From: Cyanobacteriota bacterium
Lineage (GTDB): Bacteria; Cyanobacteriota; Cyanobacteriia; Cyanobacteriales; Microcoleaceae
Reading direction: 5' to 3'
Length of the DNA: 38,303 nucleotides
Assembly: GCA_025362325.1 (NCBI GenBank)
Contig: JANYGO010000224.1
Span: 1-38,303 of the forward strand
Shown one piece after another: positions 617 to 38,303 of this stretch. Positions within the stretch are counted from its first letter, which is position 1. Every line of letters begins with the position of its first letter. The notes below the pieces were generated by a model, which made no database searches, was not told the DNA's origin, and worked only from the letters and a program-made list of their open reading frames with translations. The position numbers were made by a program, and so were the translations under genes.

Positions 617-2116
617 ATGCTGCCAGCTTCAGGGATTTCTGGTTACAACTTACAAGAACTGATTCATCAAGGAACTAACACAGTTATTTATCGGGCAATT
701 TCGACAGCCGAAAAACAGTTAGTAATTCTAAAAATTTTAAACACCGACTGTCCCACTGTCGAACAAAGCGCCAGTTTTAAACACGAATATCAAATTACCA
801 AACATTTCGACTCTCAATATATCATCAAAGTATATCGAGTCGAAATTAAGCGAAATTTTTTATTATTAGTATTAGAAGATATGGGAGGGCTTTCCCTAAA
901 ATCCTGGATGAACAGTCTCGGAAATCAACCAGAATCAGCCGCTGGCGTCACCGAAAATCTAACGGCTACCACGACTCACCAACTCTCCATTACCGAATCT
1001 TTAAACACAGTTATACCTTTGGCAAAAGCTTTAGTTTTCATGCATCAAAATCAAATCATCCATAAAGACATTAAGCCGCATAACATTATCATAAATCCCC
1101 AAACAAAGCAAGTGAAACTTGCGGATTTTAGCATCGCTTCGCGGTTGAGAAAAGAATCAACAGACTTGAAAAATCCCGATCGCCTAGAAGGAACTCTAGC
1201 ATATATGTCGCCCGAACAAACCGGGCGGATGAACCGTTCCCTAGACTACCGCAGCGATTTTTACTCTCTCGGCGTCACCTTTTACGAACTGCTGACAGGA
1301 CAATTACCATTTACCAGCAGCGACCCGTTAGAAATGGTACACTGTCACATTGCCAAAGAACCAGTTTCCCTAGAACAATTAAACCCACAAATTCCCCCAA
1401 TTTTGACCAACATTGTGGCAAAACTCATGGCAAAGAATGCCGAAGACAGGTACCAAAGTGCAACAGGATTGTTAGCAGATTTAGAACGCTGCCAAAATCA
1501 ATTTTTGAGTACAGGTACAATTTCCAACTTTATACCAGGACAACTGGATGCCATGAGTCAGTTGTCAATCCCTCAGAAGCTCTACGGACGAGAAACACAA
1601 ATAGCACAACTTTTACAAATATTCGATCGCGTCAGCAAAGGCCGCGGTGAAATTGTCCTAGTCAGCGGCTATTCTGGTATCGGCAAATCTGTATTAGTCC
1701 ATGAAATCGTCCCCAATCTAACGCAGCAGCGCGGCTATTTCATCTCCGGTAAATTCGACCAGTTTAAGCGGAATGTTCCCTACGCTTGTTTTACTCAAGC
1801 TCTGCGCAACTTCGTGCAGCAAATTTTGATGGAAAGCCCAACTCAGCTAGCAGCATGGCGAGAAACACTACTCAATGCTTTGCAGAAAAATGCTCGAATT
1901 GCGATCGATGCCATCCCAGAATTAAAATTGATTTTGGGCGAGCCACCTCCCGTACCCGAACTCAGTGCTATTGAATCTCAACACCGCTTTTGTCGAGTGA
2001 TGCAGCAGTTCGTCCAAGCAATTGCCACTGTCGAACATCCATTGGTAATGTTTATGGATGACTGCCAGTGGATAGATGCTGCAACAGTCAATTTGTACCA
2101 ACAAAATTGCCTCTAA
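617..2116 (+). CDS. N-terminal segment: Ser/Thr protein kinase plus start of AAA ATPase
   Basis: This 499-residue segment carries the protein kinase domain (about residues 9-295): candidate ATP lysine K39 in VILKIL, catalytic loop HKDIKPHN at 149-156 and DFS at 170-172, where most kinases have DFG. DFS is usual for this cyanobacterial family as I know it. It is followed by GTLAYMSPEQTG. An ATPase domain begins near residue 320 with Walker A GYSGIGKS (351-358) and Walker B-like FMDD (479-482). The TAA comes 17 codons after Walker B, so the ATPase fold would be cut. A protein ending here could still be a soluble active kinase. No strong ribosome binding site precedes the ATG at 617. Confidence 0.75.
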   Translation: MLPASGISGYNLQELIHQGTNTVIYRAISTAEKQLVILKILNTDCPTVEQSASFKHEYQITKHFDSQYIIKVYRVEIKRNFLLLVLEDMGGLSLKSWMNSLGNQPESAAGVTENLTATTTHQLSITESLNTVIPLAKALVFMHQNQIIHKDIKPHNIIINPQTKQVKLADFSIASRLRKESTDLKNPDRLEGTLAYMSPEQTGRMNRSLDYRSDFYSLGVTFYELLTGQLPFTSSDPLEMVHCHIAKEPVSLEQLNPQIPPILTNIVAKLMAKNAEDRYQSATGLLADLERCQNQFLSTGTISNFIPGQLDAMSQLSIPQKLYGRETQIAQLLQIFDRVSKGRGEIVLVSGYSGIGKSVLVHEIVPNLTQQRGYFISGKFDQFKRNVPYACFTQALRNFVQQILMESPTQLAAWRETLLNALQKNARIAIDAIPELKLILGEPPPVPELSAIESQHRFCRVMQQFVQAIATVEHPLVMFMDDCQWIDAATVNLYQQNCL

Positions 2117-2182
2117 AAAACTCCTTACTTTCTACTTATTCTTGCTTATCGAGATAATGAAGTAAGTCCGACGCATCCATTT

Positions 2183-3691
2183 GTGCTGGCTAATGAGGCA
2201 ATTCGAGCAACAGGAATTTCGATCGCAAATATTGAGCTAAAACCCTTAGCAATTTCTGATGTAACTCGATTACTTTCTGACACCTTGAAATGTTGTCCTA
2301 TAAAAGTCGCAGCCTTGGTAAAAATACTGCTAGAAAAAACTCACGGCAATCCATTTTTTTGCAAGCAGCTATTAAACTCATTACACCAACAAAAACTGCT
2401 AACATTCAACGTAAATTATGCCTCGTGGGAGTGGGATATTCAAGAAATTAAGCTGCATAAAAACTCGGAAAACGTGGTTGATTTAATGGTGGAAAAAATT
2501 CAACAGTTGTCAGGTGCAACTCAGAAAATTTTACAGTGGGCGGCTTGTATAAACAACGAATTTAGTCTAGATATATTGTCAGTAGCGAGCGAACAATCTT
2601 TGACTCAAACAGCACAAGATTTGTGGGAAGCGCTGGAAGTAGGGTTGATTTTGCCTGTAGATGGCGCCTATCTAGTACCGCAATTATTTGAGCAGCAAGA
2701 ATTAGAAAAATTCGGTGGAATAGCGAGCCAAGTGCGCTACAAGTTCTTGCACGATCGGGTTCAACAAGCAGCTTATGTCATGATTCCTGACTCGCAAAAA
2801 CAATCCGTGCACTGGAAGCTGGGACGTTTGTTATTGGAGAGAAGCAATCAAGCTGAACGCCAAGAACAGATTTTTGATATTGTCAATCATTTGAACTTTG
2901 CTCGCGAGTTGATTGCTAACCCTGAAGAACTTTATGAATTAGCAGAATTAAATTTACAAGCCGGGAAAACTGCTAAAGCTGCTTCGGCTTTTGCAGATGC
3001 ACTTACTTTTTTTCAAGCCGGGTGTGACTGTTTGCCGATGTCAAGTTGGCAAGATAATTATGCCTTGAGTTGGGCGCTAAATTTAGAACTGGGTGAAACC
3101 GAATATTTAAATAGCAAAAATGATGCTGCTTTAGCAATTTTTGACAGGATTTTACCCCAAACTCAGACTTTGTTAGAACAGTGTGCGATCGCAGAATTTA
3201 AAATAACTTGTCTGCGGATGAAGAATGATTTATCTGCTGCTTATCAGTTAGGGATTGAAACCTTAAAAAAATTGGGGATTGAATTTGAACCCTACCCGGA
3301 CGATCGCTTGCTAGCCAGCGAATTAGCCAATACCAAGAGGATGATTGGCTTATCGATCGATACATTAGCAGATTTACCAGAACTTGCCGAGCCGCTGCAA
3401 CTCGCAGCCCATCGGATTTTGAAAGAACTTTTCCCCATTGCCTATTTTACCAGTCCCAACGCTCAATATCTCTGCGCGATGAAGTTTGTGCAAACCAGCA
3501 TTCTCTACGGAAATTCGCAACTTTCCGCCTTTGGTTACACTTTATATGCGTTTACTTTGGTCAACAAATATCGCGAAATCGAAGCGGGATGCGCCGCCGG
3601 AGAACTGTCGCTCAACCTCTACGAAGGCTGCGATAATAAAGAGTTAGGTGCTTGTATTTTCCATATGTGGGGCGCTTTAACTTTACATTAA
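2183..3691 (+). CDS. Middle segment of the giant kinase: C-terminal ATPase part and helical repeat region
   Basis: This segment continues the same frame after TAA 2114. It has no catalytic motif of its own. It begins in the distal part of the AAA/STAND-type ATPase (KTHGNPFFCKQLL resembles the sensor/arginine-rich region of such proteins) and proceeds into alpha-helical, TPR-like sequence. The nominal GTG start at 2183 has no Shine-Dalgarno sequence, and homologous sequence extends upstream of it (AYRDNEVSPTHP), so it is most likely an internal part of the original gene, not an independent protein. It ends at the second in-frame TAA in ...GALTLH. Confidence 0.65.
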   Translation: MLANEAIRATGISIANIELKPLAISDVTRLLSDTLKCCPIKVAALVKILLEKTHGNPFFCKQLLNSLHQQKLLTFNVNYASWEWDIQEIKLHKNSENVVDLMVEKIQQLSGATQKILQWAACINNEFSLDILSVASEQSLTQTAQDLWEALEVGLILPVDGAYLVPQLFEQQELEKFGGIASQVRYKFLHDRVQQAAYVMIPDSQKQSVHWKLGRLLLERSNQAERQEQIFDIVNHLNFARELIANPEELYELAELNLQAGKTAKAASAFADALTFFQAGCDCLPMSSWQDNYALSWALNLELGETEYLNSKNDAALAIFDRILPQTQTLLEQCAIAEFKITCLRMKNDLSAAYQLGIETLKKLGIEFEPYPDDRLLASELANTKRMIGLSIDTLADLPELAEPLQLAAHRILKELFPIAYFTSPNAQYLCAMKFVQTSILYGNSQLSAFGYTLYAFTLVNKYREIEAGCAAGELSLNLYEGCDNKELGACIFHMWGALTLH

Positions 3692-3721
3692 ATTAAATAT
3701 ATCGATGATTGTAAGCCTTTT

Positions 3722-6496
3722 ATGCTAAAAGCTTTCAATAGCGGTTTAGAAACAGGTGCTTATCAGTGGTCGGGATATGCTTCGATTAATTATCTTTGGG
3801 TCTGCTTTTTTGGGAACGAATCTTTGCCCAAAGCTACAGAAATTGCTGATAAATTTATTCCAGTGCTCTCAAAGGTCGATCGCAATATGCTAGCTTATCA
3901 CTTGCTCAACAAAAATGCGATCGCCCAACTCACCAACCCACCAGAAACCGCCGGAGAGCCGGAAACCTTCATCAACGAACAACAGCTTTTAGAATTTGCA
4001 AAATCCTCTGCCGATCTGACTACTGCTTTTGTAATTTATCTTTACAAGCTGACCCAGGCTAATTGGTTTGGCGAGGTCGATCGGGCATTAGAATATGCTC
4101 TCAAAGGTGCGGAATTTTTGAAAGGGGGCGCCGGTCATTTTGTCAACCCCGTTTTTCGGTTCCATCACGCGATCGCCCTAGCTGCTGCTTGCACAAAAGC
4201 CAGTGATAGCGAGTGCAAACTCTACCTAAAACAGCTCAACATTAGTCTGGACAAGTTTCGAGATTTGGCAGAACATTGTCCGGCAAATTATCTGCACAAA
4301 TATTCATTAATTCAGGCAGAAATCGCGAGGCTGTCAGGAGACAACTATGCAGCAGCACAATATTATGATTGGGCGATCGCCTCCGCCCTCAAAAATGGTT
4401 TCCTCCAAAATGCCGCCCTAGCCAATGAATTAGCTTCCCGATTTTACATAGCCCAAAATCGTTGCAATCTCGCCAAAATTTATCTCAATGACGCCCGCTT
4501 TTGCTATATCGAATGGGGTGCAACTGCCAAAGTTCATCAACTAGAACAATCTCATCCCGATTGGTTTAACACCATCAGCGACGAGCCGATCGCAATAACT
4601 ACAACTGCGAGTACAGCCGCTGATGTCAATATTTTTGATTTAAAAACAGTAATCAAAGCCTCTCAAGCTATTTCTAGCGAAATAGTCTTAGAAAAATTGT
4701 TGAAAAAATTGCTGCATATCATTTTAGAAAATGCTGGCGCGCAAAGCGGGTGCATTCTTTTAGAACGAGAAGGGTACTTGTTCGTTGAAGTGTCGGATAG
4801 CGACCAGCAAGATTATGCAATATTTGAAGAATTGCAGCCAGTTAAAAAGAACTGCCAAGTGCCTCTTTCTATCGTCAATTACGTGGCGAGAACTCAGGCA
4901 CCGCTGGTGCTGAGCGATGTAACTCAAGAAACACTTTACCAATTCGATACCTACATTCAAAATTATCAACCAAAGTCGGTTATGTGCGCGCCAATTGTCT
5001 ATCAAGGAAAGTCGATCGGTATAGTTTATTTAGAAAACAACTTAGTAACCGGAGCCTTCACTCGCGAAGGTTTGACACTTTTGGAAATGCTGACGGCCCA
5101 AGCAGCAATTGCGATTGCAAACGCGCGCTTCTACGCTGGCGAACAAGACAAATCCCGCCAGTTAGCTGAATCCCTAGAAAACTTACAAAAATCTCAAGTC
5201 GAACTCGCCCAAAAAGAAGAGGAGTACCGCAGTATTTTTGAGAGTGTAGCAGACGGACTTACTTTGGTAGATTTGGAAACAGGAAAAATGGTGGCAGCAA
5301 ACCCCGTAGTCTGCGAAGTGTACGGTTATTGCCTGGAGGAATTTTTGAGCTTAAGTCCCTTAGATCTTCTGCACCCAAATTACGTACATCTCTTCGACGA
5401 GTTTATCGCAACCGTCAGCTCGCGCCAAGAATTTTATTGTCAAACTGTGGTGCTGCGAAAAGACGGTACAGAATTCGATATTGAGCTAAAAGCCAAGTTT
5501 TTTGAATACAGAGGGAAACCCCATGCTTTGTCAATTAGTCGCGATATCAGCCAGCGCAAAGCAGCGGAACAAGCTCTACAAACATCAGAAGCTCAACTGA
5601 GAGAGAAAGCGGAAAATTTAGAAGCTATACTGATTGAACTGCAACAAACTCAAGCGCAATTAGTTCAAACTGAAAAAATCTCGCAACTCGGACAACTGGT
5701 GGCTGGAGTTGCTCACGAAGTGAACAATCCTATTAGCTTTATTTCTGGAAACTTGCACCACGTTCAAGAATATATTGCTGATTTAATTAAGTTGGTGAAT
5801 CTTTATCAAGAAAGGTTTCCCGAACCTGGAGCAGAAATTGAACGGGAAATTGAATCGATCGAGCTAGAATATCTATTAGCCGATTTGCCCAAAACTACGG
5901 CATCCATGAAGATGGGCATCGATCGCATCCGCGACATTATGCAGTCTCTGCGCAACTATTCCCGCAGCGACAGTCTGGAAAAAAGAGCAGTTGACATCCA
6001 TGAAGGCATTGAAACTACTTTAATGATTTTGTCTCACCGCCTCAAGGCTAAGCACAACAGACCAGCAATTAAAATTATCAAACATTACGGTGAGTTATCA
6101 ACATTAAAATGCCATCCGGGGCAAATCAATCAAGTATTTATGAATTTGATTGCTAATGCGATCGATGCTGTGGAAGAATCCAACGCGGGCAAAACCTACG
6201 CAGAAATTGAACAAAATCCGAATACAATCATGATTTCTACGGCGGGTGTTTGCCAGCAAGAACCGGAAATCATCGACACGATTGTGATTCAGATTGCTGA
6301 CAATGGACTGGGAATGCCGGAATCAATCAGACAAAAATTGTTTCAGCCATTTTTTACAACGAAAGCAGAAGGCAAAGGTACGGGCTTGGGACTGTCTATT
6401 TGCTATCAGATAGTTACTGAAAGACATGGGGGAACTTTGGAATGTTTGTCTTCGCTAGAAGGTGGAACAGAGTTTGCAATTTGTATTCCGATGTAG
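3722..6496 (+). CDS. C-terminal segment of the giant kinase: GAF - PAS - histidine kinase
   Basis: This 924-residue segment starts with the end of the helical region, followed by a GAF domain (from about residue 305, DLKTVIKASQAISSEIVLEK), a PAS domain (from EEEYRSIFESVADGLTLVD) ending in the typical ISRDISQRKAAEQAL, a short coiled coil rich in Gln/Leu, the phosphoacceptor box GVAHEVNNPISF, and an HATPase_c domain with DNGLGMP, FFTTKAEGKGTGLGLS. All kinase motifs look intact, so an internally started protein could be a working kinase. The ATG at 3722 lacks a Shine-Dalgarno sequence. The kinase half closely resembles the H-NOX-linked kinase at 33840-35228 in motif content and spacing. Confidence 0.75.
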   Translation: MLKAFNSGLETGAYQWSGYASINYLWVCFFGNESLPKATEIADKFIPVLSKVDRNMLAYHLLNKNAIAQLTNPPETAGEPETFINEQQLLEFAKSSADLTTAFVIYLYKLTQANWFGEVDRALEYALKGAEFLKGGAGHFVNPVFRFHHAIALAAACTKASDSECKLYLKQLNISLDKFRDLAEHCPANYLHKYSLIQAEIARLSGDNYAAAQYYDWAIASALKNGFLQNAALANELASRFYIAQNRCNLAKIYLNDARFCYIEWGATAKVHQLEQSHPDWFNTISDEPIAITTTASTAADVNIFDLKTVIKASQAISSEIVLEKLLKKLLHIILENAGAQSGCILLEREGYLFVEVSDSDQQDYAIFEELQPVKKNCQVPLSIVNYVARTQAPLVLSDVTQETLYQFDTYIQNYQPKSVMCAPIVYQGKSIGIVYLENNLVTGAFTREGLTLLEMLTAQAAIAIANARFYAGEQDKSRQLAESLENLQKSQVELAQKEEEYRSIFESVADGLTLVDLETGKMVAANPVVCEVYGYCLEEFLSLSPLDLLHPNYVHLFDEFIATVSSRQEFYCQTVVLRKDGTEFDIELKAKFFEYRGKPHALSISRDISQRKAAEQALQTSEAQLREKAENLEAILIELQQTQAQLVQTEKISQLGQLVAGVAHEVNNPISFISGNLHHVQEYIADLIKLVNLYQERFPEPGAEIEREIESIELEYLLADLPKTTASMKMGIDRIRDIMQSLRNYSRSDSLEKRAVDIHEGIETTLMILSHRLKAKHNRPAIKIIKHYGELSTLKCHPGQINQVFMNLIANAIDAVEESNAGKTYAEIEQNPNTIMISTAGVCQQEPEIIDTIVIQIADNGLGMPESIRQKLFQPFFTTKAEGKGTGLGLSICYQIVTERHGGTLECLSSLEGGTEFAICIPM

Positions 6497-6550
6497 GGGA
6501 GTCATATCATTTCCGTTTGATTAGGAATTGTATCATTATTAAGATAAGAC

Positions 6551-6590: not shown

Positions 6591-8585
6591 CTAAACAATC
6601 GGAATAGTAAAGTGAAATTCACTTCCTCGGTCTTTTCCCGCGGAATCTGCCCAAATTTTACCGCCCCAGCCGGCGACAATCTGCTTGCAAATTGCTAATC
6701 CCAAACCTGTACCGCCGGCGCTGCGCCGCAATGCTCCTTCTTCTTGATAAAATCGATCGAATACTATTTTTAAACTGCTCGCCTCTATTCCCCGCCCCGT
6801 ATCGGCTACAAGCACTTCTACCATCCGAGAACCGCTGCATTGCGCCTTTATGGTGACGCTTCCCTGGGGTGTGGTGAATTTGCAAGCGTTGTCTAGCAGC
6901 TTGGAGAGCACCTCCACCAACCACTCGCCGTCTGCTTGCACTAATGGCAATTCTGCGGAGACTTCGGCGATAATTTGCGGCAACTTGCGATCGAGTCCGC
7001 CGCGCGATCGCACGCTGCTGAGGGCCAAATCAACGCATTCTTGCAGTGTCAGCGATTCTACATTCCATTTGACTCGCCCGCTTTCTAAGTGAGAAAGTGT
7101 TAAGAAATCCTGCACGAGTTTCCGCATTCTCTCGGCATCGCCGAGGGCAGTTTCTAACATGATCTTCCGCAATTCTTGGGGCATATCTGGTTCGGAGTTC
7201 AAACTTTCCAGACATACTTGAATCGTCGAAAGTGGAGTGCGGAGTTCGTGACCGGTGATGGCAATTAGATTGCTGCGAGTGCGGTCTAATGCTTCTAATT
7301 GTTGGTTGAGTTCTTCTAAATGAGCGTAGGTTTCGGCTTGAATTAAGGCTGCTCCGAGTTGGGTGGCGATCGCCTCTACTAAGGCCAGTTCGTCTTCTTC
7401 CCAAGGCAAGGTCGATCGACACTGGTGCAATTCCATCATTCCCAAAACCCGCCCCTGATAAAGCACAGGCACCATTAACCAAGAGACAATCTGCCAATTT
7501 TTGACAGTTTTTTCTAGGGATTTTGTATTGACAATCAGCGGGTCTTGTGCTGTGTCTTTGATGTAAACTCGTTCTTGCCGGGTGACGGCATCGCGGAATA
7601 TGGGATTTTTCTGCAACTGCCAAGTCTGATCGAGCATGGAAGTAGTGCCTGGACGCAAAAACTCGCGATCGATTTTGACAGAAACATCTACGGCTTTGCA
7701 CCGATAAATCAAACAGCGGCTGGCTGACAAAGCTGTTCCCAATTCTTGGACTGCAACTTCGACGATTTCTTGCGGGTTGAGAGACTGCCGCATTGCCGTT
7801 GTGATTAGGTTGATCAGGCGTTCTTTGCGTTCCTGGGCGGCGATCGCGCTGTATGCTTTCAGCAGTTTGTGCTGGCCTGCTTGCAAGTAGGTGACTAAGC
7901 GTTCGGCAAAAGCGTCGCTCAATTTGGGATTGGGAATCTTTGAGTCTTTTGCCGCACTTTTGTCGGGTTTTGCGGCTTTGGAAGCGGCGGATTTCCGCGT
8001 TTTTTTCGGTGCTTTTGCCAGATTGTAGGTAGTTCGCGCTCGATCGATCTTTTCTGCCAATTCCGGGCGATATTTGAGAATTTTATCCAGCAACAATTCG
8101 GCAGCTTTGCAGCTTACCTCGCGATCAAACGTCCAAATTCCTTCAAATCTACGAGCTTGATCTATTAATAGCGGATCGCGATCGTCCTGGTTGTCGATCG
8201 GCACAATTTTTTCTTGACAAATCAGACAAGTTGAGTAGTGTTGCCCCAGTACGACTAAGTGCCACTCTTTACTTAATGTGTCCTCCGGTGCAAACGCCAC
8301 AGTTTCGTGATGTTCCGAGGAATTTTTAAACTCAGTTTCCGGTGATGATAGCACGTATACCTGAGAGGAGTGATCGGCAATGCGCCGGTAGCGGTGAGCC
8401 TCATGGCGGTAGAAGCGCTCTTGCTGAAAGCTGGCAATGACTAGCGGTTCGTCGTCGGAGCCCGCCAAAACCAAGTCTTCCATCGCGTGAGACAGCGCTG
8501 TCATGGAAGATTTGAAATAAATTTGTGCCCGCAGTTGGGGCAAAGCTTGCAGAAGTTCTGCTAAAAGCGAAATTGGGACGATCAT
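6591..8585 (-). CDS. DICT-domain GAF sensor histidine kinase
   Basis: The 664-residue product begins with a DICT sensory domain (about 1-175; the family is found in cyanobacterial two-component and diguanylate-cyclase proteins). A lysine/alanine-rich linker follows (about 192-215), then a GAF domain (about 258-415), a short coiled coil, the phosphoacceptor box TGHELRTPLS with His446, and an HATPase_c domain with LLDNACKF, DTGRGIEA and GGTGLGLAICKQ. There is no membrane segment, so it should be cytosolic. No response regulator gene adjoins it. The ATG at 8585 has AAGG four bases upstream, and a perfect 11-bp hairpin lies in its leader (8618-8650). It is convergent with the giant kinase gene. 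The signal it senses is unknown. Confidence 0.9.
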   Translation of the reverse strand: MIVPISLLAELLQALPQLRAQIYFKSSMTALSHAMEDLVLAGSDDEPLVIASFQQERFYRHEAHRYRRIADHSSQVYVLSSPETEFKNSSEHHETVAFAPEDTLSKEWHLVVLGQHYSTCLICQEKIVPIDNQDDRDPLLIDQARRFEGIWTFDREVSCKAAELLLDKILKYRPELAEKIDRARTTYNLAKAPKKTRKSAASKAAKPDKSAAKDSKIPNPKLSDAFAERLVTYLQAGQHKLLKAYSAIAAQERKERLINLITTAMRQSLNPQEIVEVAVQELGTALSASRCLIYRCKAVDVSVKIDREFLRPGTTSMLDQTWQLQKNPIFRDAVTRQERVYIKDTAQDPLIVNTKSLEKTVKNWQIVSWLMVPVLYQGRVLGMMELHQCRSTLPWEEDELALVEAIATQLGAALIQAETYAHLEELNQQLEALDRTRSNLIAITGHELRTPLSTIQVCLESLNSEPDMPQELRKIMLETALGDAERMRKLVQDFLTLSHLESGRVKWNVESLTLQECVDLALSSVRSRGGLDRKLPQIIAEVSAELPLVQADGEWLVEVLSKLLDNACKFTTPQGSVTIKAQCSGSRMVEVLVADTGRGIEASSLKIVFDRFYQEEGALRRSAGGTGLGLAICKQIVAGWGGKIWADSAGKDRGSEFHFTIPIV

Positions 8586-11095: not shown

Positions 11096-11683
11096 TTAAA
11101 GTCTTTCTAAGAAATTTCGCAATAATTGCTTTCCCGAAGTCGTCAAAATACTTTCCGGGTGAAACTGCACACCTTCAATGTGCGGATATTCCCGATGCCG
11201 CACACCCATAATTGTGCCATCTTCAACCCAAGCCGTAACTTCCAAGACTTCAGGACAACTCTGCTTTTCTATTACCAAACTATGATAGCGAGTTGCAATC
11301 ATCGGCGAGTCTACTCCTACAAAAACTCCTACTCCTGCGTGTTCTACCTGAGAAGTTTTGCCGTGCATCAATACTGGTGCAGAAACTATTTTGCCGCCGA
11401 ATACTTGACCGATACTTTGATGTCCGAGACACACGCCCAAAATTGGCAGAGTCGGGCCCAATTCCTTGATTAATTCCAGAGAAATTCCCGCATCCTCCGG
11501 CCGCCCCGGGCCTGGAGAAATTACCACTGCTGCCGGTTGCAATCGTCTAATTTCTGCTAATGAAATTTGGTCGTTACGGTAGACTTGGACTTCTCTGGCT
11601 GCGGGCAACTCGGCACCGAGTTCTCCTAGATACTGTACCAAGTTGTATGTAAAACTGTCGTAGTTATCGATGACTATAATCAC
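11096..11683 (-). CDS. trpG: Anthranilate / aminodeoxychorismate synthase component II (glutamine amidotransferase)
   Basis: The 195-residue length is usual for this class I amidotransferase subunit, which hydrolyses glutamine and passes ammonia to TrpE or PabB for tryptophan or folate synthesis. The catalytic triad is visible: Cys85 in GVCLGHQ, His175 and Glu177 in GVQFHPES. The N-terminus [19 protein letters not shown] and the oxyanion motif [12 protein letters not shown] are intact. From sequence alone trpG and pabA cannot be separated, and many bacteria use one subunit for both. It is followed on the same strand by dgkA (about 180 bp upstream in gene order). Heptamer repeats of the ttttaga type lie on both sides (around 11028 and 11708). 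Confidence 0.92.
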
Positions 11684-13563: not shown

Positions 13564-14394
13564 TTAACAAAAATGTAACGTTTTGTGTAGATTTTTTGAG
13601 GTTTGGGATGGTCGGAGGCTGGTTGCGCGCAGCAGAGAATCAGCCCAAACAGCATCCGGTTCGGCAAGCGGGGGCACGGATTCGGCGGTATAGTCGATCG
13701 TAAAATCATATCCGGCGCGATCGTACACTGTATTCAACAACGCCTGTAAATCCACAACTGGTTCCACATCGCCTCCGCGCAAAGGCAAAGGAAAAGCCGG
13801 AATTGCATCCGGTAGATTAAACAAATACAAATCAGCCATAGGGCGACAATCTCCCCGACTCACCAAAATTCGATAACTTCCCTCAATATTGTCACCAAAA
13901 ACAGGCAGAGGTTCGTAACTTCGCAGCAAGTCAATTTCCACTAAGTGCGATCGACTTCCGAATACCTTATCTCGCTTTTCCTCATACATCTCCCGCCCCT
14001 TTCCCGGACGTTTATTAGCAGGTGAAAGCACCTCAATCACCGTCACAACTTCTTTACTTGCCATATCTCTAATCTCCAAATACGCTTCTCTCACCTCCTC
14101 AAACATCGGTAATCCGACTTTCAAAGGCGTAACAGTTCGTGTCGCGACAGCTACATTAGATGAATTTGAATTTCTGGGAGTAGGATTGCGCACAATTGAA
14201 ACATCAGGAATTCCGACTAACAGAGATTGTTCTCCCTTGAGTTCATAAATGCGCTTTTCAATCGCCACTCGATATTTTGGCACCAGTTGGGGAACCAAAA
14301 CATCTGCAATCGCCACGATTAAACGACTATGTACCTCTGGCCAAAAGTCAGGACTTTCTAAATAGGGATTCATCCCCGGAAATGGATTAGGCAT
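13564..14394 (-). CDS. DUF4058 family protein, tandem copy 1 (last in the array)
   Basis: The N-terminus MPNPFPGMNPYLESPDFWP and the later segments VVTVIEVLSPANKRPGKGR, VEIDLLRSYEPLPVFG and RILVSRGD define DUF4058. No function is established; the segment EVLSPANKRPGKGR with conserved Glu, Asp and Lys residues resembles a PD-(D/E)xK-type core, which is only an inference. It is 276 residues, 14 longer than its two neighbours, because its C-terminus after SLLRATSLR runs into unrelated sequence (PSQTSKNLHKTLHFC). It starts 30 bases after the stop of copy 2, and no Shine-Dalgarno sequence precedes it. Confidence 0.88.
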   Translation of the reverse strand: MPNPFPGMNPYLESPDFWPEVHSRLIVAIADVLVPQLVPKYRVAIEKRIYELKGEQSLLVGIPDVSIVRNPTPRNSNSSNVAVATRTVTPLKVGLPMFEEVREAYLEIRDMASKEVVTVIEVLSPANKRPGKGREMYEEKRDKVFGSRSHLVEIDLLRSYEPLPVFGDNIEGSYRILVSRGDCRPMADLYLFNLPDAIPAFPLPLRGGDVEPVVDLQALLNTVYDRAGYDFTIDYTAESVPPLAEPDAVWADSLLRATSLRPSQTSKNLHKTLHFC

Positions 14395-14424
14395 AGTAAT
14401 ATATTGTTGAAATTTTCCACCGCA
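14395..14424. repeat. Duplicated spacer between DUF4058 copies 1 and 2
   Basis: The first 26 bases (agtaatatattgttgaaatt and then ttccac) are identical to those of the spacer at 15214-15243. The spacer and the first about 50 bases of the adjoining gene are nearly identical between the two junctions, marking the duplication unit. Confidence 0.85.
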
Positions 14425-15213
14425 TCAACCTCTCAATCCCATCTCCCGCAACCAAGCATCAGCCCAAACAGCATCCGGTTCCGACAGCGCAGGCACCGGT
14501 TCGGTGGTATAATCGATTCTAAAATCATAGGCAGCGCGATCGTAAACCCCATTTAATAACTCTTGTAAATCTACAATTGGTTCCGCATCGCCTGGGCGCA
14601 AAGGCAATGGAAATTGAGGAATCATATTGGGTAAATTGAAAAGGTACAAATCTGCCAAAGGCTTTTGATTTGTTCGACTTACCAAAATTCGATAACTTCC
14701 CTCAATCTCATTACCAAAAACTGGCAGAGGTTGGTAACTTCGCAGCAAGTCAATTTCCACCATCTGAGTCCGACTACCAAACACCTTTTCTCGCTTTTCT
14801 TCATACATTTCTCGCCCTTTACCAGGACGCTTGTTGGCTGGTGATAGCACTTCAATCACTGTCACAACTTCCCTGGTTTCTGTATCTCGCACCTCTAGAT
14901 AGGCTTCCCTAAATTCGACAGGTACTGGCAGTCTTACTCTCAAAGCCGTCACAGGCGGTGCGGCAACTGCGATATTAGAAGAAGTAGGGTTTGTTTGAAT
15001 TGGATAGCGCTGCACGGTGACATCAGGAATCCCCACTAATAGGGAATTTTCGCCGCTAATCTCATAAACTCTTTTTTCAATATCAACGATATATCTTGGC
15101 AGCAACTGCGGCACTAATGATTCAAAAATGCTACTAATTAGCAAGTGATGTACTTGGGGCCAAAAATCAGGACTTTCTAAATAGGGATTCATCCCCGGAA
15201 ATGGATTAGGCAT
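14425..15213 (-). CDS. DUF4058 family protein, tandem copy 2
   Basis: This 262-residue middle paralogue has the same landmarks as its neighbours: MPNPFPGMNPYLESPDFWP at the N-terminus, VIEVLSPANKRPGKGREMY, VEIDLLRSYQPLPVFG and the C-terminal DAVWADAWLREMGLRG. The spacer to the copy downstream (14395-14424) and the spacer behind it (15214-15243) are the same for the first 26 bases, which shows that gene and spacer were duplicated as a unit. Neither spacer has a ribosome binding site, so translation may depend on reinitiation from the preceding copy. The function is unknown. Confidence 0.88.
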   Translation of the reverse strand: MPNPFPGMNPYLESPDFWPQVHHLLISSIFESLVPQLLPRYIVDIEKRVYEISGENSLLVGIPDVTVQRYPIQTNPTSSNIAVAAPPVTALRVRLPVPVEFREAYLEVRDTETREVVTVIEVLSPANKRPGKGREMYEEKREKVFGSRTQMVEIDLLRSYQPLPVFGNEIEGSYRILVSRTNQKPLADLYLFNLPNMIPQFPLPLRPGDAEPIVDLQELLNGVYDRAAYDFRIDYTTEPVPALSEPDAVWADAWLREMGLRG

Positions 15214-15243
15214 AGTAATATATTGTTGAAATTTTCCACTACA
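15214..15243. repeat. Duplicated spacer between DUF4058 copies 2 and 3
   Basis: This is the partner of 14395-14424: the first 26 of 30 bases are identical. It lacks a Shine-Dalgarno sequence, unlike the leader of copy 3. Confidence 0.85.
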
Positions 15244-16032
15244 TTAACCCCTTAACCCTGTCTCCCGCAACAAACCATCGGCCCAAGCAGCATCGGCTTC
15301 CGACAGCGCAGGAACGGGTTCGGCGGTATAATCGATTTCAAAATCATATCCCGCGCGATCGTATACTTGATTAATCAGCGCTTGTAAATCCAAAACAGGC
15401 TCTACGTCTTCTGGACGTAAAGGCAAGGGAAATGCAGGAATTGGATCGGGAATGTTAAATAAGTACAAATCTGCGATCGGACGTTGATTGCTGCGACTGA
15501 CTAAAATGCGGCAGTCGCTTTCATTATAACCTCCAAACACTGGCAAAGGTTCCCCACCGCGCAACAAGTCTATTTCGACTAAATGCGTACTGGTATCAAA
15601 TATTTTATGTCGCTTATTGCCATACTTTTCTCGACCTTCCCCTCTGCGTTTATTTGCAGGTGAAAGCACTTCAATCACTGTAACAACTTCCTTGGTCGCC
15701 ATGTCAATTACTTCTAAATATCCTTCACGAAATTCTTCCGACCCTTGGATTATGACTTTTAGAGGTTCCACGGTTCTAGAAGCGACAGCAATATTAGATG
15801 ATACTGGATTAGTTGGATAGCGTTTTTGTTGGATAGAGACATCAGGAATCGCTACTAATAGAGAAGTTTCACCTTGGATTTCATAAATTCGCTTTTCAAT
15901 AGCGACGCGGTATTTGGGGCGCAATTGCGGAGTGAGAGACTCTTTAATCGCACTAATCAGTAAATGATGAACTTCTGGCCAAAAATCAGGATGTTCTAAA
16001 TAGGGATTCATCCCCGGAAATGGATTAGGCAT
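15244..16032 (-). CDS. DUF4058 family protein, tandem copy 3 (first in the array)
   Basis: This 262-residue protein is the promoter-proximal copy. It alone has a consensus ribosome binding site: GGGAGGT followed by acgatt and then ATG at 16032 (minus strand). Compared with the other copies it diverges most in the middle (GEGREKYGNKRHKIFDTST in place of GKGREMYEEKR...VFGSR; GGYNESDCRILVSR). It lies 130 bp downstream of the thrS stop on the same strand, with two small hairpins between them (16081-16112 and 16120-16140), so it probably has its own promoter. The function is unknown. Confidence 0.88.
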   Translation of the reverse strand: MPNPFPGMNPYLEHPDFWPEVHHLLISAIKESLTPQLRPKYRVAIEKRIYEIQGETSLLVAIPDVSIQQKRYPTNPVSSNIAVASRTVEPLKVIIQGSEEFREGYLEVIDMATKEVVTVIEVLSPANKRRGEGREKYGNKRHKIFDTSTHLVEIDLLRGGEPLPVFGGYNESDCRILVSRSNQRPIADLYLFNIPDPIPAFPLPLRPEDVEPVLDLQALINQVYDRAGYDFEIDYTAEPVPALSEADAAWADGLLRETGLRG

Positions 16033-18854: not shown

Positions 18855-19011
18855 GAAGGCGAGTTACAGTTAAACCCGCAGTCTCATGTTAAACCTTGGG
18901 AAAGTCGCGGCAAACTTGACAAACTCAAACCGATTTCCAGTTAATAAGTGATTACTTGCTGAAACACATTTGTAAATTGCTGTGTGGCTGTTTAGCCCGG
19001 AGGAGAAAATA

Positions 19012-19452: not shown

Positions 19453-20403
19453 TTAGGCGGCTGGCATTTCTGAAAATCGCTGCCAACCCTTTTCCCCAAA
19501 CCCAAAATCGAAGATTTCCGGATGGAGAATTTCTGCTAAAATTTCTAACGAATCCACCAATCTCGGCCCCGGACGATTAAAGTAAGAATTGCCGTCAGTT
19601 ATGTAAACTTTCCCGGTTTTTACTGCTTGCAAATCTTGCCATTCTGCGTATTTAGTTATCTGCATTGCTTCGCAGCGAGTGCGGTTTAAATCAAAGCCGC
19701 AAGGCATGAAAATAATTACATCGGGATTAGCTTCTACTAGCGATTCCCATTTTAACCACGGGGAATGTTCCCCGACAATGCCAAACAGCGAATTACCTCC
19801 CGCCATCGCCACTAATTCCGGAATCCAATTTCCCGCAGCCATCAAAGGTTCAATCCACTCGATGCAGGCTACTTTCGGAAGTCTCTCTTTTGTGTTAAGA
19901 ATAGATGATGCTGAGATTTTGGATGTAATAGCAGCGATGCGGGATTGCAAAAGTGCGATCGTACTTTTGGCATCTACGCCCAGAGCATCAGCAACTCGCT
20001 CAATATCCGTCCAAATTTCTGCGAGCAAATTCGGCTGCAAAGAAATAATTTGTGGCTGGCTATTTACCAACGTGCTAACAGCTTGTTCCACCTCTGTCAG
20101 AGAACAAGCACAGACTTCGCATTGAGCTTGAGTAATAATGTGAGTGGGCTGCAATTTTTCCAAAGTATCTATTTCTACTTTATACACGCTCAGCGCATTT
20201 TGCAACAATTGAGTCACGCGGTTGTGAATTTCGCTGCTAGTGCCTTCGGGATTGAATTTAGGCTGAGTGCACACAGGTAAATTTTGGATTTCTGGGGGAT
20301 AATCGCATTCGTGGGAACGGCCCACAATTGCATCGGTTAATCCTAAAGCTGCTACAATTTCGGTGGCACTGGGAATGAGCGAGACAATTCTGAGTTGATT
20401 CAT
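19453..20403 (-). CDS. Cobalamin-binding-type protein (BtuF/FecB fold), no export signal
   Basis: The 316-residue product begins directly with the core strand LRIVSLIPSATEIVAALGL, followed by VGRSHECDYPPEI and, in the second lobe, NPDVIIFMPCGFDLNRT and YITDGNSYFNRPGPRLVDSLEIL. This places it in the periplasmic-binding-protein family of vitamin B12/siderophore (BtuF-like) type, often annotated cobalamin-binding protein. It has no signal peptide and no neighbouring permease or ATPase gene, so it may act in the cytosol rather than in transport. QAQCEVCACS carries three Cys residues that could bind a ligand or metal. A palindromic element separates it from the glycosyltransferase gene upstream. 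Confidence 0.82.
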   Translation of the reverse strand: MNQLRIVSLIPSATEIVAALGLTDAIVGRSHECDYPPEIQNLPVCTQPKFNPEGTSSEIHNRVTQLLQNALSVYKVEIDTLEKLQPTHIITQAQCEVCACSLTEVEQAVSTLVNSQPQIISLQPNLLAEIWTDIERVADALGVDAKSTIALLQSRIAAITSKISASSILNTKERLPKVACIEWIEPLMAAGNWIPELVAMAGGNSLFGIVGEHSPWLKWESLVEANPDVIIFMPCGFDLNRTRCEAMQITKYAEWQDLQAVKTGKVYITDGNSYFNRPGPRLVDSLEILAEILHPEIFDFGFGEKGWQRFSEMPAA

Positions 20404-23735: not shown

Positions 23736-25022
23736 TTAATAAGTCCAGTTTTGCTTAGTCTGCAAGCTATAGGTTCCATCTTTCACATTCACCCGCTCAG
23801 GAATCAGATCCATATCTCTAAATATATTTGCCTGATGCTGTAGGGCCGTGAGCGATTGGTCGTCGATCGGGATAATAGCGCGTTCGGCACTACGTTGCTG
23901 TAAAAGTTCTACAATGGATGGATCGATTTCATGGTGCTCTGCCAATCGCACAGTAGCTTCTAATTCCTGTTTCTTAGCCCAAGTTCCCGCTTCATTTACC
24001 TCTTCTAAAATCACCTTGAGCAAGTCAGGATAGTCGCGTACCAACTCTGGAATCGCATAATAATAGGTCGGAACTTCCACAGAGGCTTTGTCACCAAAGA
24101 TGCTCTCTAAGTCTGCAATCGAGCGCCCTGGATAAGCGCTTCGGACTTGAGTTGTCGTGTAGGGAACCCAAATTACCCAAGCATCGACCTCACCTTGTCG
24201 GAATAGGGACAACGCCTGTGGCTGGGTCAGATAAATTGGCTCAATGTCACTAAACTCTAATCCCACTTTTGCCAGTGCTCGCACCAGCACATAATGGGCG
24301 CTTGAGCCTTTGTCAAAAGCTATCTTTTTACCCTTGAGGTCAGCAAGCGTCTGAATTGGCGAATCTTCTGGCACTAAAATCGCTTGACCTTTGGGAGCAG
24401 TATATTTTTCTTTAGCCACCCGCACAAATACATGATCCGCTGCTTGAGAGAAGATGCTGGCTGTACCACCGCCGCCGCAGAAATCGATCGTCCCATTGCT
24501 TAGCGCTTCTATCAGAGCAGAAGCTGATAAGAAGCTCGTCCAAGTGACAACCAGCCCAAATGGTCGCAAACGATTTTCGAGCAAGCCTTGAGTACGGAGG
24601 ACTTCCAGATTTGTCATCCCCTCTGGATACCCGATTTTCAGTTGCTTGAGCCGCCGCGCTTGCTCAGCTAAGGGCGTGTTACCAGAATGAGCAGAACGGT
24701 TAGAAAACCAGCGATCCAAAACTACACAGAAAATAATCCCACCCACAAACAGTCCCACGGTTTCTAATACCCGGATTGTTGAGTCTTTAGGTAGTGCGAC
24801 CTGATTTACCTGACTTACTAGAGGGGAGAGTACATTGCCAGAGGCAGAAGCGGCAACAGCATGACTGTCAAAAGTCAGACTCAAAACCAAAAGCGAGACA
24901 AAGCCGATGCAAAACAGACCTGCAAACCGATAGGCGGTCGGTCTACGAGTGGTCGAACTGAGCGACCGTAAGATATTTTGACCTCCGCCTCTAGGCAGAC
25001 GGCCAATCAAACGGCTAATCAT
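23736..25022 (-). CDS. Membrane-anchored SsuA/TauA-like substrate-binding protein
   Basis: I place the start at the ATG at 25022 (428 residues), where AAAGGAG precedes by five bases; the longer frame to 25082 has no such site. There are two membrane spans (about residues 31-51 and 85-103) and a basic N-terminus. A complete SsuA/NMT1-type binding domain follows (from KIGYPEGMTNLEVLRTQGLL): LIEALSNGTIDFCGGGG, LADLKGKKIAFDKGSSAHYV, FRQGEVDAWVIWVPYT. Such domains bind sulfonates, taurine, nitrate or thiamine-precursor-like ligands. The double membrane anchor is unusual, and no ABC permease or ATPase gene lies nearby. It is transcribed divergently from a CadD-family transporter gene; the roughly 320 bp between holds the shared control region. 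The ligand is unknown. Confidence 0.82.
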   Translation of the reverse strand: MISRLIGRLPRGGGQNILRSLSSTTRRPTAYRFAGLFCIGFVSLLVLSLTFDSHAVAASASGNVLSPLVSQVNQVALPKDSTIRVLETVGLFVGGIIFCVVLDRWFSNRSAHSGNTPLAEQARRLKQLKIGYPEGMTNLEVLRTQGLLENRLRPFGLVVTWTSFLSASALIEALSNGTIDFCGGGGTASIFSQAADHVFVRVAKEKYTAPKGQAILVPEDSPIQTLADLKGKKIAFDKGSSAHYVLVRALAKVGLEFSDIEPIYLTQPQALSLFRQGEVDAWVIWVPYTTTQVRSAYPGRSIADLESIFGDKASVEVPTYYYAIPELVRDYPDLLKVILEEVNEAGTWAKKQELEATVRLAEHHEIDPSIVELLQQRSAERAIIPIDDQSLTALQHQANIFRDMDLIPERVNVKDGTYSLQTKQNWTY

Positions 25023-25344
25023 AATTACTCCTTTGGTAAACACAGGTGATGGACGCTGGATGAATTGAAGATGGGCGATCAAGTCAAAGCACCGCTTGAT
25101 ACAGAACTTCCGGCTGCTATTCGCGGACGCAGACAGTATCGAAAGTTAGGACATGAAAGGGATACGAGTAAAACTGCGCTTCATAATAGCCGGAACTGCT
25201 GTATGTAAAAACTACCAGATTTGCTCGCTCGTTACACCCAATATGCGATACTCTCATTATCATATCGAGATTGTGGTGTTTCTCCACAACGATTGAGAAA
25301 TTCGTCGTTTCGGCGATCGGACAGGTGTTCTGTGAGGGATGGTA
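25023..25344. promoter_or_regulatory. Divergent control region between the binding protein and the CadD transporter
   Basis: Both start codons have good ribosome binding sites at the edges of this stretch (25028-25034 on the minus strand, 25334-25338 on the plus strand). Inside lie an inverted repeat ttgtgg/ccacaa (25272-25277 and 25285-25290) and a distant ttccggct/agccggaa pair. Either could be an operator. I do not see a clear promoter pair or a regulator gene beside it. Confidence 0.4.
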
Positions 25345-26013
25345 ATGGATTGGTTAATTGCAACAATTAAGATCGGGCTAGCTGCTGCTGTAGCAACAAC
25401 GTTTGACGACAATATTTATCTGACTGCCTTCTTCAGTGAGGTTAATCGTACTTTTCGTCCTCAACATATTGTGGTGGGTGAGCTTCTAGGGTTCACGGCA
25501 TTGATGGCAGTGAGTTTGGTTGGTTTCTTACTGGGGCTAGTAATTCCGTCAACTTGGACGGGGCTACTGGGGATTTTGCCGATACTCATTGGCTTGAATA
25601 ATTTGCTCAATCTGAATAAGGATGATTCAGCCGAAGATAAGTCAACTAATCTGAAAAGAAACTCTAAAATTCGAGGATTTGATTCTCGGCAGCGATCGCT
25701 CTGGGACGTAATCCGCGATCAGGAGACCTATCGCGTTTTCGCAGTCACGATTGCTAACGGCGGTAACAATCTTGGGATCTATATCCCTTTGTTTGCCACT
25801 AGCTCAATCCAAAATCTGTCCGTAATTATACCCATTTGCTATTTTATTGTTGGCTGCTGGCTGTTTATGTCCTATACTCTGACGCATCTACCTGGGATTG
25901 CTTTCATCCTCAGCCGTTATGCTCGCAAGATTTTCCCCTTTGTGCTGATGTGGCTGGGTTTCAGAATTCTGGTAGACAGCGAATCCTATCGTATTTTTCT
26001 ACCGAACATTTAA
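25345..26013 (+). CDS. CadD-family (cadmium resistance type) membrane transporter
   Basis: The start is the ATG at 25345, with GAGGG at 25334-25338 and a 6-base spacer; the ATG at 25339 is too close to that site. The 222-residue product has membrane spans with the CadD family's N-terminal motif (AAAVATTFDDNIYLTAFFS), the segment HIVVGELLGFTALMAVSL, a hydrophilic loop (about residues 90-125) and FAVTIANGGNNLGIYIPLF. In this family members export Cd2+ or related cations, but substrate assignment from homology is loose. It is divergent from the membrane-anchored binding protein and appears to be monocistronic. Confidence 0.85.
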   Translation: MDWLIATIKIGLAAAVATTFDDNIYLTAFFSEVNRTFRPQHIVVGELLGFTALMAVSLVGFLLGLVIPSTWTGLLGILPILIGLNNLLNLNKDDSAEDKSTNLKRNSKIRGFDSRQRSLWDVIRDQETYRVFAVTIANGGNNLGIYIPLFATSSIQNLSVIIPICYFIVGCWLFMSYTLTHLPGIAFILSRYARKIFPFVLMWLGFRILVDSESYRIFLPNI

Positions 26014-33280: not shown

Positions 33281-33832
33281 ATGTACGGTTTAGTTAACAA
33301 AGCGATCGAAGAAATGGTCTGTTCTCGCTTCGGAGAAGAGACTTGGGAAACCATCAAAGAGAAAGCAGATGTAGACATTGACGTTTTCATGACAATGGAG
33401 GCTTATCCAGACGATCTCACTCACCGCCTGGTACACTCGGCAAGCGAAGTGCTAGGAATGAGCGCAGACGAGATTTTACAGGCTTTCGGCGAATACTGGG
33501 TAATCTATACCGCCTCTGAAGGCTACGCCCAAATCCTCGATATGGCGGGAGATAACCTGCGGGAGTTTCTGGCAAACCTCGACAACCTCCACGCCCGCGT
33601 CGGGTTGAATTTTCCCCAGCTTCAACCGCCTTCGTTTCGGTGTACTGACAACTCCGAAAATAGCATGGAACTGCACTATTACTCTCACAGGCAAGGGTTT
33701 GCCCCAATGGTGAAGGGGCTGTTGAAAGGTTTGGCGTGCCGATTCCAAACCAAGGTAGAGATCGAGCAAACAAGCGATCGTACTCAGGGAGCAGATCGCG
33801 ACGTGTTCTCCATCCACTGCAAATCTAGCTAA
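33281..33832 (+). CDS. H-NOX (heme NO/O2-binding) sensor protein
   Basis: The 183-residue stand-alone domain binds heme and senses NO (some relatives bind O2). The proximal heme ligand His104 sits in NLHARVG, and the heme-propionate motif YxSxR is present (Tyr133, Ser135, Arg137; YYSHRQGF). The length is that of bacterial stand-alone H-NOX. The start is decided by AGGAG at 33270-33274 with a 6-base spacer. The gene is followed seven bases later by an HNOBA-type histidine kinase, the usual partner in bacterial H-NOX signalling, so the two form an operon. Ligand preference (NO alone or also O2) cannot be decided from the sequence with certainty. Confidence 0.95.
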
Positions 33833-33839
33833 AACTCTT

Positions 33840-35228
33840 ATGGTTTCCCCTGCATTCAGTTCTCCTCCTCTGATATTTGCAAAAGCTTTTCCATTTCATT
33901 TAGCATTCCGGAGATGGGAGACTGAAATTGTGCATTTGGGAGATGTTTTAGCTCGGATCTGCCCCGAATTATCTTTAGGAAGTTCGCTCAAGGAACACTT
34001 TCGGATCGAACGGCCGAACGTTCCTCTAGAATTTGACGCCATTCGAGAGCAGTCTCGCTCGATCTTCCTTCTCGAATCACTGCACAGCAAAATGCTGCTC
34101 AAAGGGCAGATGGTTGTGGCCCAAAATCCCGAAGTAATCTTTTTCCTCGGTTCCCCTTGGATCGCAGACTTAGCGGATCTCGCCCCGCTGGGGCTGACTA
34201 TTAACGATTTCGCCCTTCACGATCGGGTAGTTGACTTGCTTTTCTTGTTGCAAGCACAGAAAACTGCCTTAGCGGATGCTAAAAAACTCACTGAGAAATT
34301 AACCAAACAGCGAGCTCAATTGCGATCGGCACTACAGGAAGCAGAACAGGCGGCGAATGCTGTGGCCCAAACCCAACAACTCAAGAAAACTCTGCAAGAA
34401 TTGCAGCAAACCCAAGCGCAACTGATCCAAAGCGCCAAAATGTCGAGCCTCGGTGAACTTGTCGCGGGTGTAGCTCATGAAATCAACAATCCCGTCAATT
34501 TTATTCTAGGCAACCTCGACTGCGCCCGCGACAACATTCAACAGTTGCTGAAACTGATAGAACTCTATCAAAAATACAATCCCGATCCGGCACCGGAAAT
34601 TCTCGCTTATAAAGATGAAATTGAATTTGATTTTTTACATCAAGACTTGCCTAAACTTTGCTCTTCCATGCGGGTAGGCGCTGACCGGATTCGCAAGATC
34701 GTGGTGTCGCTGCGTAATTTTTCTCGCCTAGATGAAGCGGAAATGAAGTTTGTCAATATCCACGAAGGGCTAGATAGTACGCTGCTAATACTGCAAAATC
34801 GGCTCACAGGAAATAATGGCAGGCCGGAAATTGAAGTGATTAAAGAATATGGCGAACTGCCACTTATAGAATGTTATCCAGGACAGCTCAATCAGGTGTT
34901 TGTCAATCTGCTCAGCAATGCAGTAGATGCTTTAGAAATGGGCGCCCGTGAGGGCGGTAGGATTCGGATTCGCACGGAACTTTTGCAGGCGGGCGATCGC
35001 GCCAGAGTGCTAATTGCCGATAACGGGCCGGGATTTGGCACTCTTGTGAGCGATCGAATGTTTGACCCGTTTTTTACCACAAAACCTGTAGGTCAGGGTA
35101 CGGGGTTAGGGCTCTCAATCAGTTACCAGATTGTTGTTTTGAAACATCAGGGGTTGATTCGCGCTATTGGTGTACCCGGTTCCGGGGCGGAGTTTTGCGT
35201 TGAAATTCCGTTGAAGCAAAAAAATTAG
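33840..35228 (+). CDS. H-NOX-associated (HNOBA) sensor histidine kinase
   Basis: The 462-residue protein begins with an HNOBA domain (about 9-140: AFPFHLAFRRWETEIVHLGD), the region that contacts H-NOX proteins. A coiled coil follows (about 142-200), then the phosphoacceptor box GVAHEINNPVNF with His213 and an HATPase_c domain with DNGPGFG and FFTTKPVGQGTGLGLS. No membrane span is seen. It starts seven bases after the H-NOX stop, so translation is probably coupled. In known systems H-NOX bound to NO changes the kinase's autophosphorylation. No response regulator gene follows; the partner must be encoded elsewhere. The kinase core closely resembles that at the C-terminus of the giant kinase (5700-6490). 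Confidence 0.93.
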   Translation: MVSPAFSSPPLIFAKAFPFHLAFRRWETEIVHLGDVLARICPELSLGSSLKEHFRIERPNVPLEFDAIREQSRSIFLLESLHSKMLLKGQMVVAQNPEVIFFLGSPWIADLADLAPLGLTINDFALHDRVVDLLFLLQAQKTALADAKKLTEKLTKQRAQLRSALQEAEQAANAVAQTQQLKKTLQELQQTQAQLIQSAKMSSLGELVAGVAHEINNPVNFILGNLDCARDNIQQLLKLIELYQKYNPDPAPEILAYKDEIEFDFLHQDLPKLCSSMRVGADRIRKIVVSLRNFSRLDEAEMKFVNIHEGLDSTLLILQNRLTGNNGRPEIEVIKEYGELPLIECYPGQLNQVFVNLLSNAVDALEMGAREGGRIRIRTELLQAGDRARVLIADNGPGFGTLVSDRMFDPFFTTKPVGQGTGLGLSISYQIVVLKHQGLIRAIGVPGSGAEFCVEIPLKQKN

Positions 35229-37862: not shown

Positions 37863-38168
37863 ATGAAACTGCGTCGGAAAACACTATCGATAGTTGGGAT
37901 TACCATCGCTGGACTGACTGGCATTCTGTATGCCGCCTCCTCAAGCATCCTTTTAGGCAGCCTTGTCAAAGCCGAGGAACAAGAAGCCACACAAGTTGTC
38001 AAGGGAGTGCTCAGCGTGTTCGGGCAAACCGCAGACGATTTCAACTCGCGCTTTGCCGACTGGTCAGCCTGGGATGACACCTACGCTTTCATCCAAAACG
38101 GTAACAAAGAATTCATCGCCTCCAATTTGATTCCCGAAGGACTGGCTAATGTGAGAGTTAACATATAG
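37863..38168 (+). pseudogene. Truncated CHASE4-domain membrane sensor
   Basis: From the ATG at 37863 the frame reads a basic N-terminus and a membrane span (LSIVGITIAGLTGILYA). The first part of a CHASE4 extracellular sensor domain follows (VLSVFGQTADDFNSRFADWS, then AWDDTYAF and EFIASNLIPEGLANVRVN). It then stops at a TAG (38166-38168) after only about 101 residues. Normal CHASE4 sensors continue with the rest of this domain, a second span and cytosolic output domains. The sequence after 38160 does not continue it in any frame I examined, so an inserted element or deletion is likely. The longer frame from 37725 starts inside the preceding gene and is not used. Confidence 0.75.
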
Positions 38169-38303
38169 CATTTCTTAGAAAGATGAGGTATAATATAACT
38201 GACTTAAACGGAGTGAAAAATATAGAACCTCAAAATGTTATACAGCTCTAATTAAATGGGGCGCTCTTCGAGCAGTAGTCCCTCGACCCGCAGCAGTCAC
38301 TCT
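38163..38303 (+). other. Sequence beyond the break of the CHASE4 gene, possibly a mobile element end
   Basis: The 141 bases to the window end lack any CHASE4 homology. They contain a perfect TATAAT (38189-38194), a short AT-rich leader and GC-rich sequence from about 38258. No transposase reading frame begins before the window ends. An insertion sequence is possible but not shown. Confidence 0.3.

Follow-up and report, generated by a model that had tools for sequence, protein, structure and literature searches.

The window, by which the whole stretch of DNA analysed here is meant, corresponds to the complete contig C320 (38,303 bases) of a draft genome of 6.37 Mb in 396 contigs, with an estimated completeness of 94.9% and a contamination of 1.3%. 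Its left part carries a large kinase gene interrupted by two in-frame stop codons, followed by a convergent sensor kinase gene. The coordinates of these features are summarized in Table 1.

Table 1. Features of the interrupted kinase gene and of its convergent neighbour.
Feature	Position	Strand	Remarks
HstK-type Ser/Thr kinase-AAA ATPase-GAF-PAS-histidine kinase frame	617..6496	+	1,960 codons including the terminal TAG; two internal TAA
Open piece 1, 499 codons	617..2113	+	Pkinase (PF00069) and AAA_16 (PF13191), to just past Walker B
First in-frame TAA, codon 500	2114..2116	+	Sense codon in 9/9 orthologues
Open piece 2, 524 codons	2117..3688	+	After the AAA module; no Pfam domain matched at E 0.001
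Second in-frame TAA, codon 1025	3689..3691	+	Same amino acid in 9/9 orthologues
Open piece 3, 934 codons and terminal TAG	3692..6496	+	GAF, PAS, HATPase_c; HisKA below curated cut-off
DICT-CHASE6_C-GAF-histidine kinase gene	6591..8585	-	Convergent neighbour, intact

The open reading frames listed at 617-2116, 2183-3691 and 3722-6496 share one frame, and translation of the whole gene yielded exactly the two internal stops given in Table 1 before the terminal TAG was reached. The first-pass annotation had described a one-frame kinase gene split by two TAA codons, each followed by A, with family-like sequence in the gaps behind them. Translation and alignment to intact orthologues bore out this description in every part: the base after each of the two internal TAA codons is A, and the stretches behind the stops (AYRDNEVSPTHP behind the first, IKYIDDCKPF behind the second) are family sequence that aligns without gaps to nine intact orthologues. 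In the same alignment, no frameshift was found in the kinase gene.

When the intact protein of Microcoleus sp. CAN_BIN18 (G010) was used as a query, the three pieces were recovered as a single match of 88% identity covering all 1,961 residues, with two TAA codons inside, so the three-piece pattern is not a product of chance. Near codon 118, the window gene is without one codon that is present in all seven orthologues compared, and G010 carries one extra codon beside this site. Compensated frameshifts, i.e., an insertion together with a deletion in the A-runs near 2100-2121, were also considered and rejected, as the orthologue alignment has the same length there and contains no indel.

Piece 1 matched the models of the Ser/Thr kinase domain (PF00069, E 1.2e-40) and of AAA_16 (PF13191, E 1.5e-42). 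The motifs VILK, HKDIKPHN and DFS are present together with Walker A and Walker B; the lysine of VILK, the HxD element of HKDIKPHN, and DFS are catalytic motifs, and the Walker motifs are those of the P-loop. The Walker B stretch VMFMDDCQW ends at codon 485, in agreement with the earlier placement of the first stop just past this motif. In piece 3, PF01590 (GAF) and PF02518 (HATPase_c) were above the cut-off and the H box is present, while HisKA reached 22.0 of the 26.9 bits of its curated cut-off; the H, N, G1 and G2 boxes of this piece correspond to those of the orthologues. Among the matches listed from an NCBIfam scan of the three pieces, only the PAS model TIGR00229 exceeded its curated cut-off. 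The kinase, Walker, H, N and G motifs inspected match those of the orthologues, small substitutions aside.

An N-terminal kinase, an AAA_16/P-loop module and a C-terminal GAF and histidine kinase part were thus all found in the arrangement of an HstK-type protein, but not in one uninterrupted frame, because of the two internal TAA codons. HstK, a member of the cbSTKIII group, also has AAA and GAF domains, and the name HstK-type is used for the window gene on the grounds of domain content. According to the title of the HstK paper as listed in PMC2176072, HstK of Anabaena PCC 7120 (Alr2258) likewise combines a Ser/Thr kinase and a histidine kinase in one protein, from which the window gene differs in that its frame is interrupted by two stops. 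Passages of PMC2176072 use cbSTKIII as a group label for cyanobacterial Ser/Thr kinases, and its references include Phalip 2001, the original HstK paper. In search listings, the openings of abstracts and these passages of PMC2176072, no mention of the window gene was found.

DNA searches against 39 genomes and protein searches against 29 genomes of the same genus yielded nine close orthologues with 81-88% protein identity to the window frame, among them those of G010, of filamentous cyanobacterium Phorm 6 (G040) and of Microcoleus sp. LEGE 07076 (G042). Seven coding sequences were compared first, and two more were added afterwards. The orthologues resemble the window gene in the whole frame and in the motifs inspected but, unlike it, are uninterrupted: in each, about 1,961 codons form a single open frame, and both stop positions are occupied by sense codons. 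In this alignment of orthologues, which had been proposed as a check of the two codons, both stops were private to the window genome among the genomes examined. The two columns differ in character, since three different amino acids occur among the nine orthologues at the first stop and one and the same amino acid is found in all nine at the second.

The search of the genus with the G010 query likewise returned two TAA codons for the window gene and none for the nine orthologues. In total, 369 family matches were recorded in the 29 genomes (sum of the per-genome column). In-frame stops were present in two of the best 150 of these 369 matches, a number that was counted by hand, includes the query's own gene and is based on the scoring of no more than 15 first-look candidates in any one genome; copies broken by a frameshift or by a contig end would not register as stops in this search. 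One of the two is the window gene. The other, G043:C567, is likewise a large kinase of the same family with an in-frame stop (TAG), but it is a distant paralogue with 41% identity to the G010 query, and its stop is single, compared with two in the window gene. The nearest paralogue in the window genome itself (C202; 69% identity to the G010 query) is intact and open over 1,989 codons. An exact 30-base pattern search added little, as it allowed zero mismatches and covered 29 genomes without the orthologue genomes G023, G040 and G042.

A close orthologue (at least 81% identity to the G010 query) was present in 10 of the 29 genus genomes, the window genome counted, which marks the gene as accessory; at the genus level, it seems to be dispensable. 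In two relatives (L139 and L048; G039:C322 and G011:C26), a gene at the same locus with about 70% identity was observed, in which the match is broken at query residues 1535-1650. The break coincides with the PAS region and lies inside one open frame, and these genes seem to be a natural variant without the PAS domain.

With respect to the surroundings of the gene, the contig that carries the kinase gene also contained a match to the DNA of the convergent neighbour in eight out of nine relatives, in one of them as a 310-base contig end only. Upstream, the main matches with the nine relatives were 71-78% alike over part of the first 616 bases (mostly from about position 200 or 310 on), so this region is recognisably retained.

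Selection was evaluated with an MG94-type codon model for ten sequences, each piece being fitted on its own tree. On the window branch, dN/dS reached 0.304, 0.415 and 0.232 for pieces 1, 2 and 3, compared to background values of 0.331, 0.275 and 0.288, and none of the differences was significant (p 0.70, 0.11 and 0.34, respectively). Fixing the window branch at 1 worsened the fit relative to the one-ratio model by 2dlnL of 31.9, 8.1 and 42.6. For the whole gene, the window branch yielded 0.307 versus 0.300, values obtained on one average tree although the piece trees are incongruent; a window-branch value of 0.40 was disfavoured at a 2dlnL cost of 4.6, and a value of 1.0 was rejected (84.8). 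Relaxed selection on the window branch was therefore not detected by the codon model, either per piece or for the whole gene. The relaxation in all parts that the first-pass annotation had named as the sign of a plain pseudogene did not appear. Piece 3, which lies behind both stops, looked as constrained as any other piece.

The highest window-branch estimate was that of piece 2, with private changes of 7 nonsynonymous to 3 synonymous. In simple polarised counts, the window branch showed 86 nonsynonymous and 72 synonymous changes and G010 showed 38 and 40; for piece 2 alone, the counts were 28:15 versus 7:13, which looked raised but corresponded to the codon-model p of 0.11. Control branches (G010, G040 and G023, each in three pieces) gave one nominally significant result in nine tests (G010, piece 1, 0.577, p 0.045), which indicates that intact copies, too, show minor deviations. 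The N/S ratio of private changes in the window gene was 0.91 (32 to 35) and fell inside the range observed for the nine relatives, 0.64-2.14; the class "stop" in these change counts takes in two-change codons, the real stops being two. The window gene thus showed neither an excess of amino-acid changes nor a frameshift, and what is demonstrated is the stops alone and not decay itself.

Among the ten genomes, the three piece trees (617-6496) disagree with one another. On this phylogenetic evidence, recombination inside the kinase gene is likely.

Normal selection up to now implies that the breaks are very recent, or that they are consensus errors, or that a segregating allele was sampled. If unconstrained sequence is assumed to evolve at a dN/dS of 1, at most about 13% (one eighth) of the window branch would have been neutral since the break.

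Taken together, the locus is most likely a very young pseudogene of an accessory HstK-type dual kinase in a Microcoleus-type cyanobacterium, possibly a nonsense allele that is still segregating. The disabling changes are missing from all nine orthologues, and a window branch without detectable relaxation fits only a very recent break. After the split from the sequenced relatives, two substitutions would have arisen, each making a TAA. Translation from 617 would then end after codon 499, so that the GAF-PAS-histidine-kinase output would be lost and the product would be at most a fragment of 499 residues that retains the whole Ser/Thr kinase domain and part of the ATPase module. This reading takes the function to have been lost and the stops to be real in the cell rather than errors of the consensus.

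The constraint retained in piece 3 is what a very recent break would leave, and it can be explained without assuming that the sequence past the stops serves a second purpose. That two independent stops arose in a period too short to lift dN/dS is slightly unexpected. When random single-base changes were introduced into the G010 orthologue, about 4-6% of them created a stop, so a second stop in a short unconstrained period is not remarkable. The missing frameshifts, which had been put forward as an argument against random decay, carry little weight here, since the break is probably too young: so few substitutions would have accumulated afterwards that, given the ratio of indels to substitutions, hardly any frameshifts, or none, would be expected. 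Of the four options named in the first-pass annotation, the very young pseudogene and the natural nonsense allele stood, as the stops are private among the genomes examined, all nine relatives are intact, and selection on the window branch is normal; sequencing error was disfavoured, and readthrough was not upheld.

An intact gene in the cell, with both stops introduced by the draft assembly, was regarded as unlikely. The draft character of the genome, with the contig number, completeness and contamination given above, is in line with such errors, and the same can be said of the intact orthologues and of the fully normal selection on the window branch. However, the other genes of the contig gave no sign of them: of 22 other gene places, 17 had counterparts in relatives, and in-frame stops were absent from all 17. 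The 22 places comprised the 21 open reading frames inspected in the window and the one at 18982; the counterparts of the 17 were matches above 60% identity to ORFs of at least 120 aa in five stretches of four relatives. The five uncovered places were 11096-11683, 23736-25082, 25339-26013, 33281-33832 and 33840-35228; three shadow frames on the opposite strand, at 6107-6505 and 6661-7068 (both with stops) and at 19706-20122 (free of stops), were excluded from the 22, as was the gene truncated by the right end of the contig. Furthermore, both errors would need to be stop-making substitutions in one and the same gene, without any frameshift, and the private changes, lying inside the range of the relatives, showed no excess of random errors.

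A gene fission under way, in which piece 1 acts as a free kinase and pieces 2 and 3 are translated from GTG 2183 and ATG 3722, was considered very unlikely. The candidate starts lie 66 and 30 bases past the two stops, and the first is ATG or GTG in all nine orthologues and the second ATG in eight of the nine. In the orthologues, however, both codons lie within a single protein, so finding them here does not speak for a start. By eye, the 25 bases before each candidate are without a Shine-Dalgarno-like stretch, and the first split falls inside the ATPase module, just past Walker B. There is even less reason to expect a new short gene formed by truncation, i.e., a free Ser/Thr kinase that is expressed and is kept because kinase signalling is thereby uncoupled from the histidine-kinase half; such an outcome would be highly surprising.

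Least probable of all was functional readthrough, by which a short Ser/Thr kinase would be made along with a low level of the full receptor. All inspected catalytic motifs are kept, and purifying selection was seen on the window branch in all three pieces, but this signal is accounted for by the time before the stops arose. The stops are not conserved: a stop was found at either place in none of the nine relatives, and their privacy among the genomes examined argues against a conserved readthrough or two-product device. The variable first and invariant second column among the orthologues also speak against it. In addition, TAA terminates 10 of the 21 window ORFs inspected and so looks like a normal stop here. 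Reassignment of the codon was rejected on the same count and because the 17 comparable gene places of the 22 align without internal stops.

The probable young pseudogene is of little importance on its own, representing one clean case of turnover in the very large kinase family of filamentous cyanobacteria. The break has been caught so early that the sequence past the stops still shows the purifying selection of the past. It also calls for caution, as neither an in-frame stop without frameshifts nor a dN/dS well below 1 is, taken alone, a sign of readthrough.

Several other observations were made on the contig. At 37863-38303, a gene for a CHASE4-HAMP-PAS-histidine kinase, which is 843-893 aa long in relatives, breaks off after about 100 codons, where a repeat starts near 38163. 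Seven further matches of the repeat were found in the window genome, two of which lie at base 1 of a contig, and relatives such as G020 contain many as well. The repeat probably represents the terminus of a mobile element; the contig may thus carry a second broken sensor gene, or may just end in the repeat. Elsewhere in the genome (L158:223-1598; G000:C292), a flippase-like polysaccharide-synthesis gene lies in three open pieces between two inverted copies of the same repeat and is possibly another decayed gene. Three tandem DUF4058 genes are located at 13564-16032. At 33281-35228, a Haem-NO-binding (H-NOX) gene is followed by an HNOBA-histidine kinase gene, and the two possibly form an NO sensor pair.
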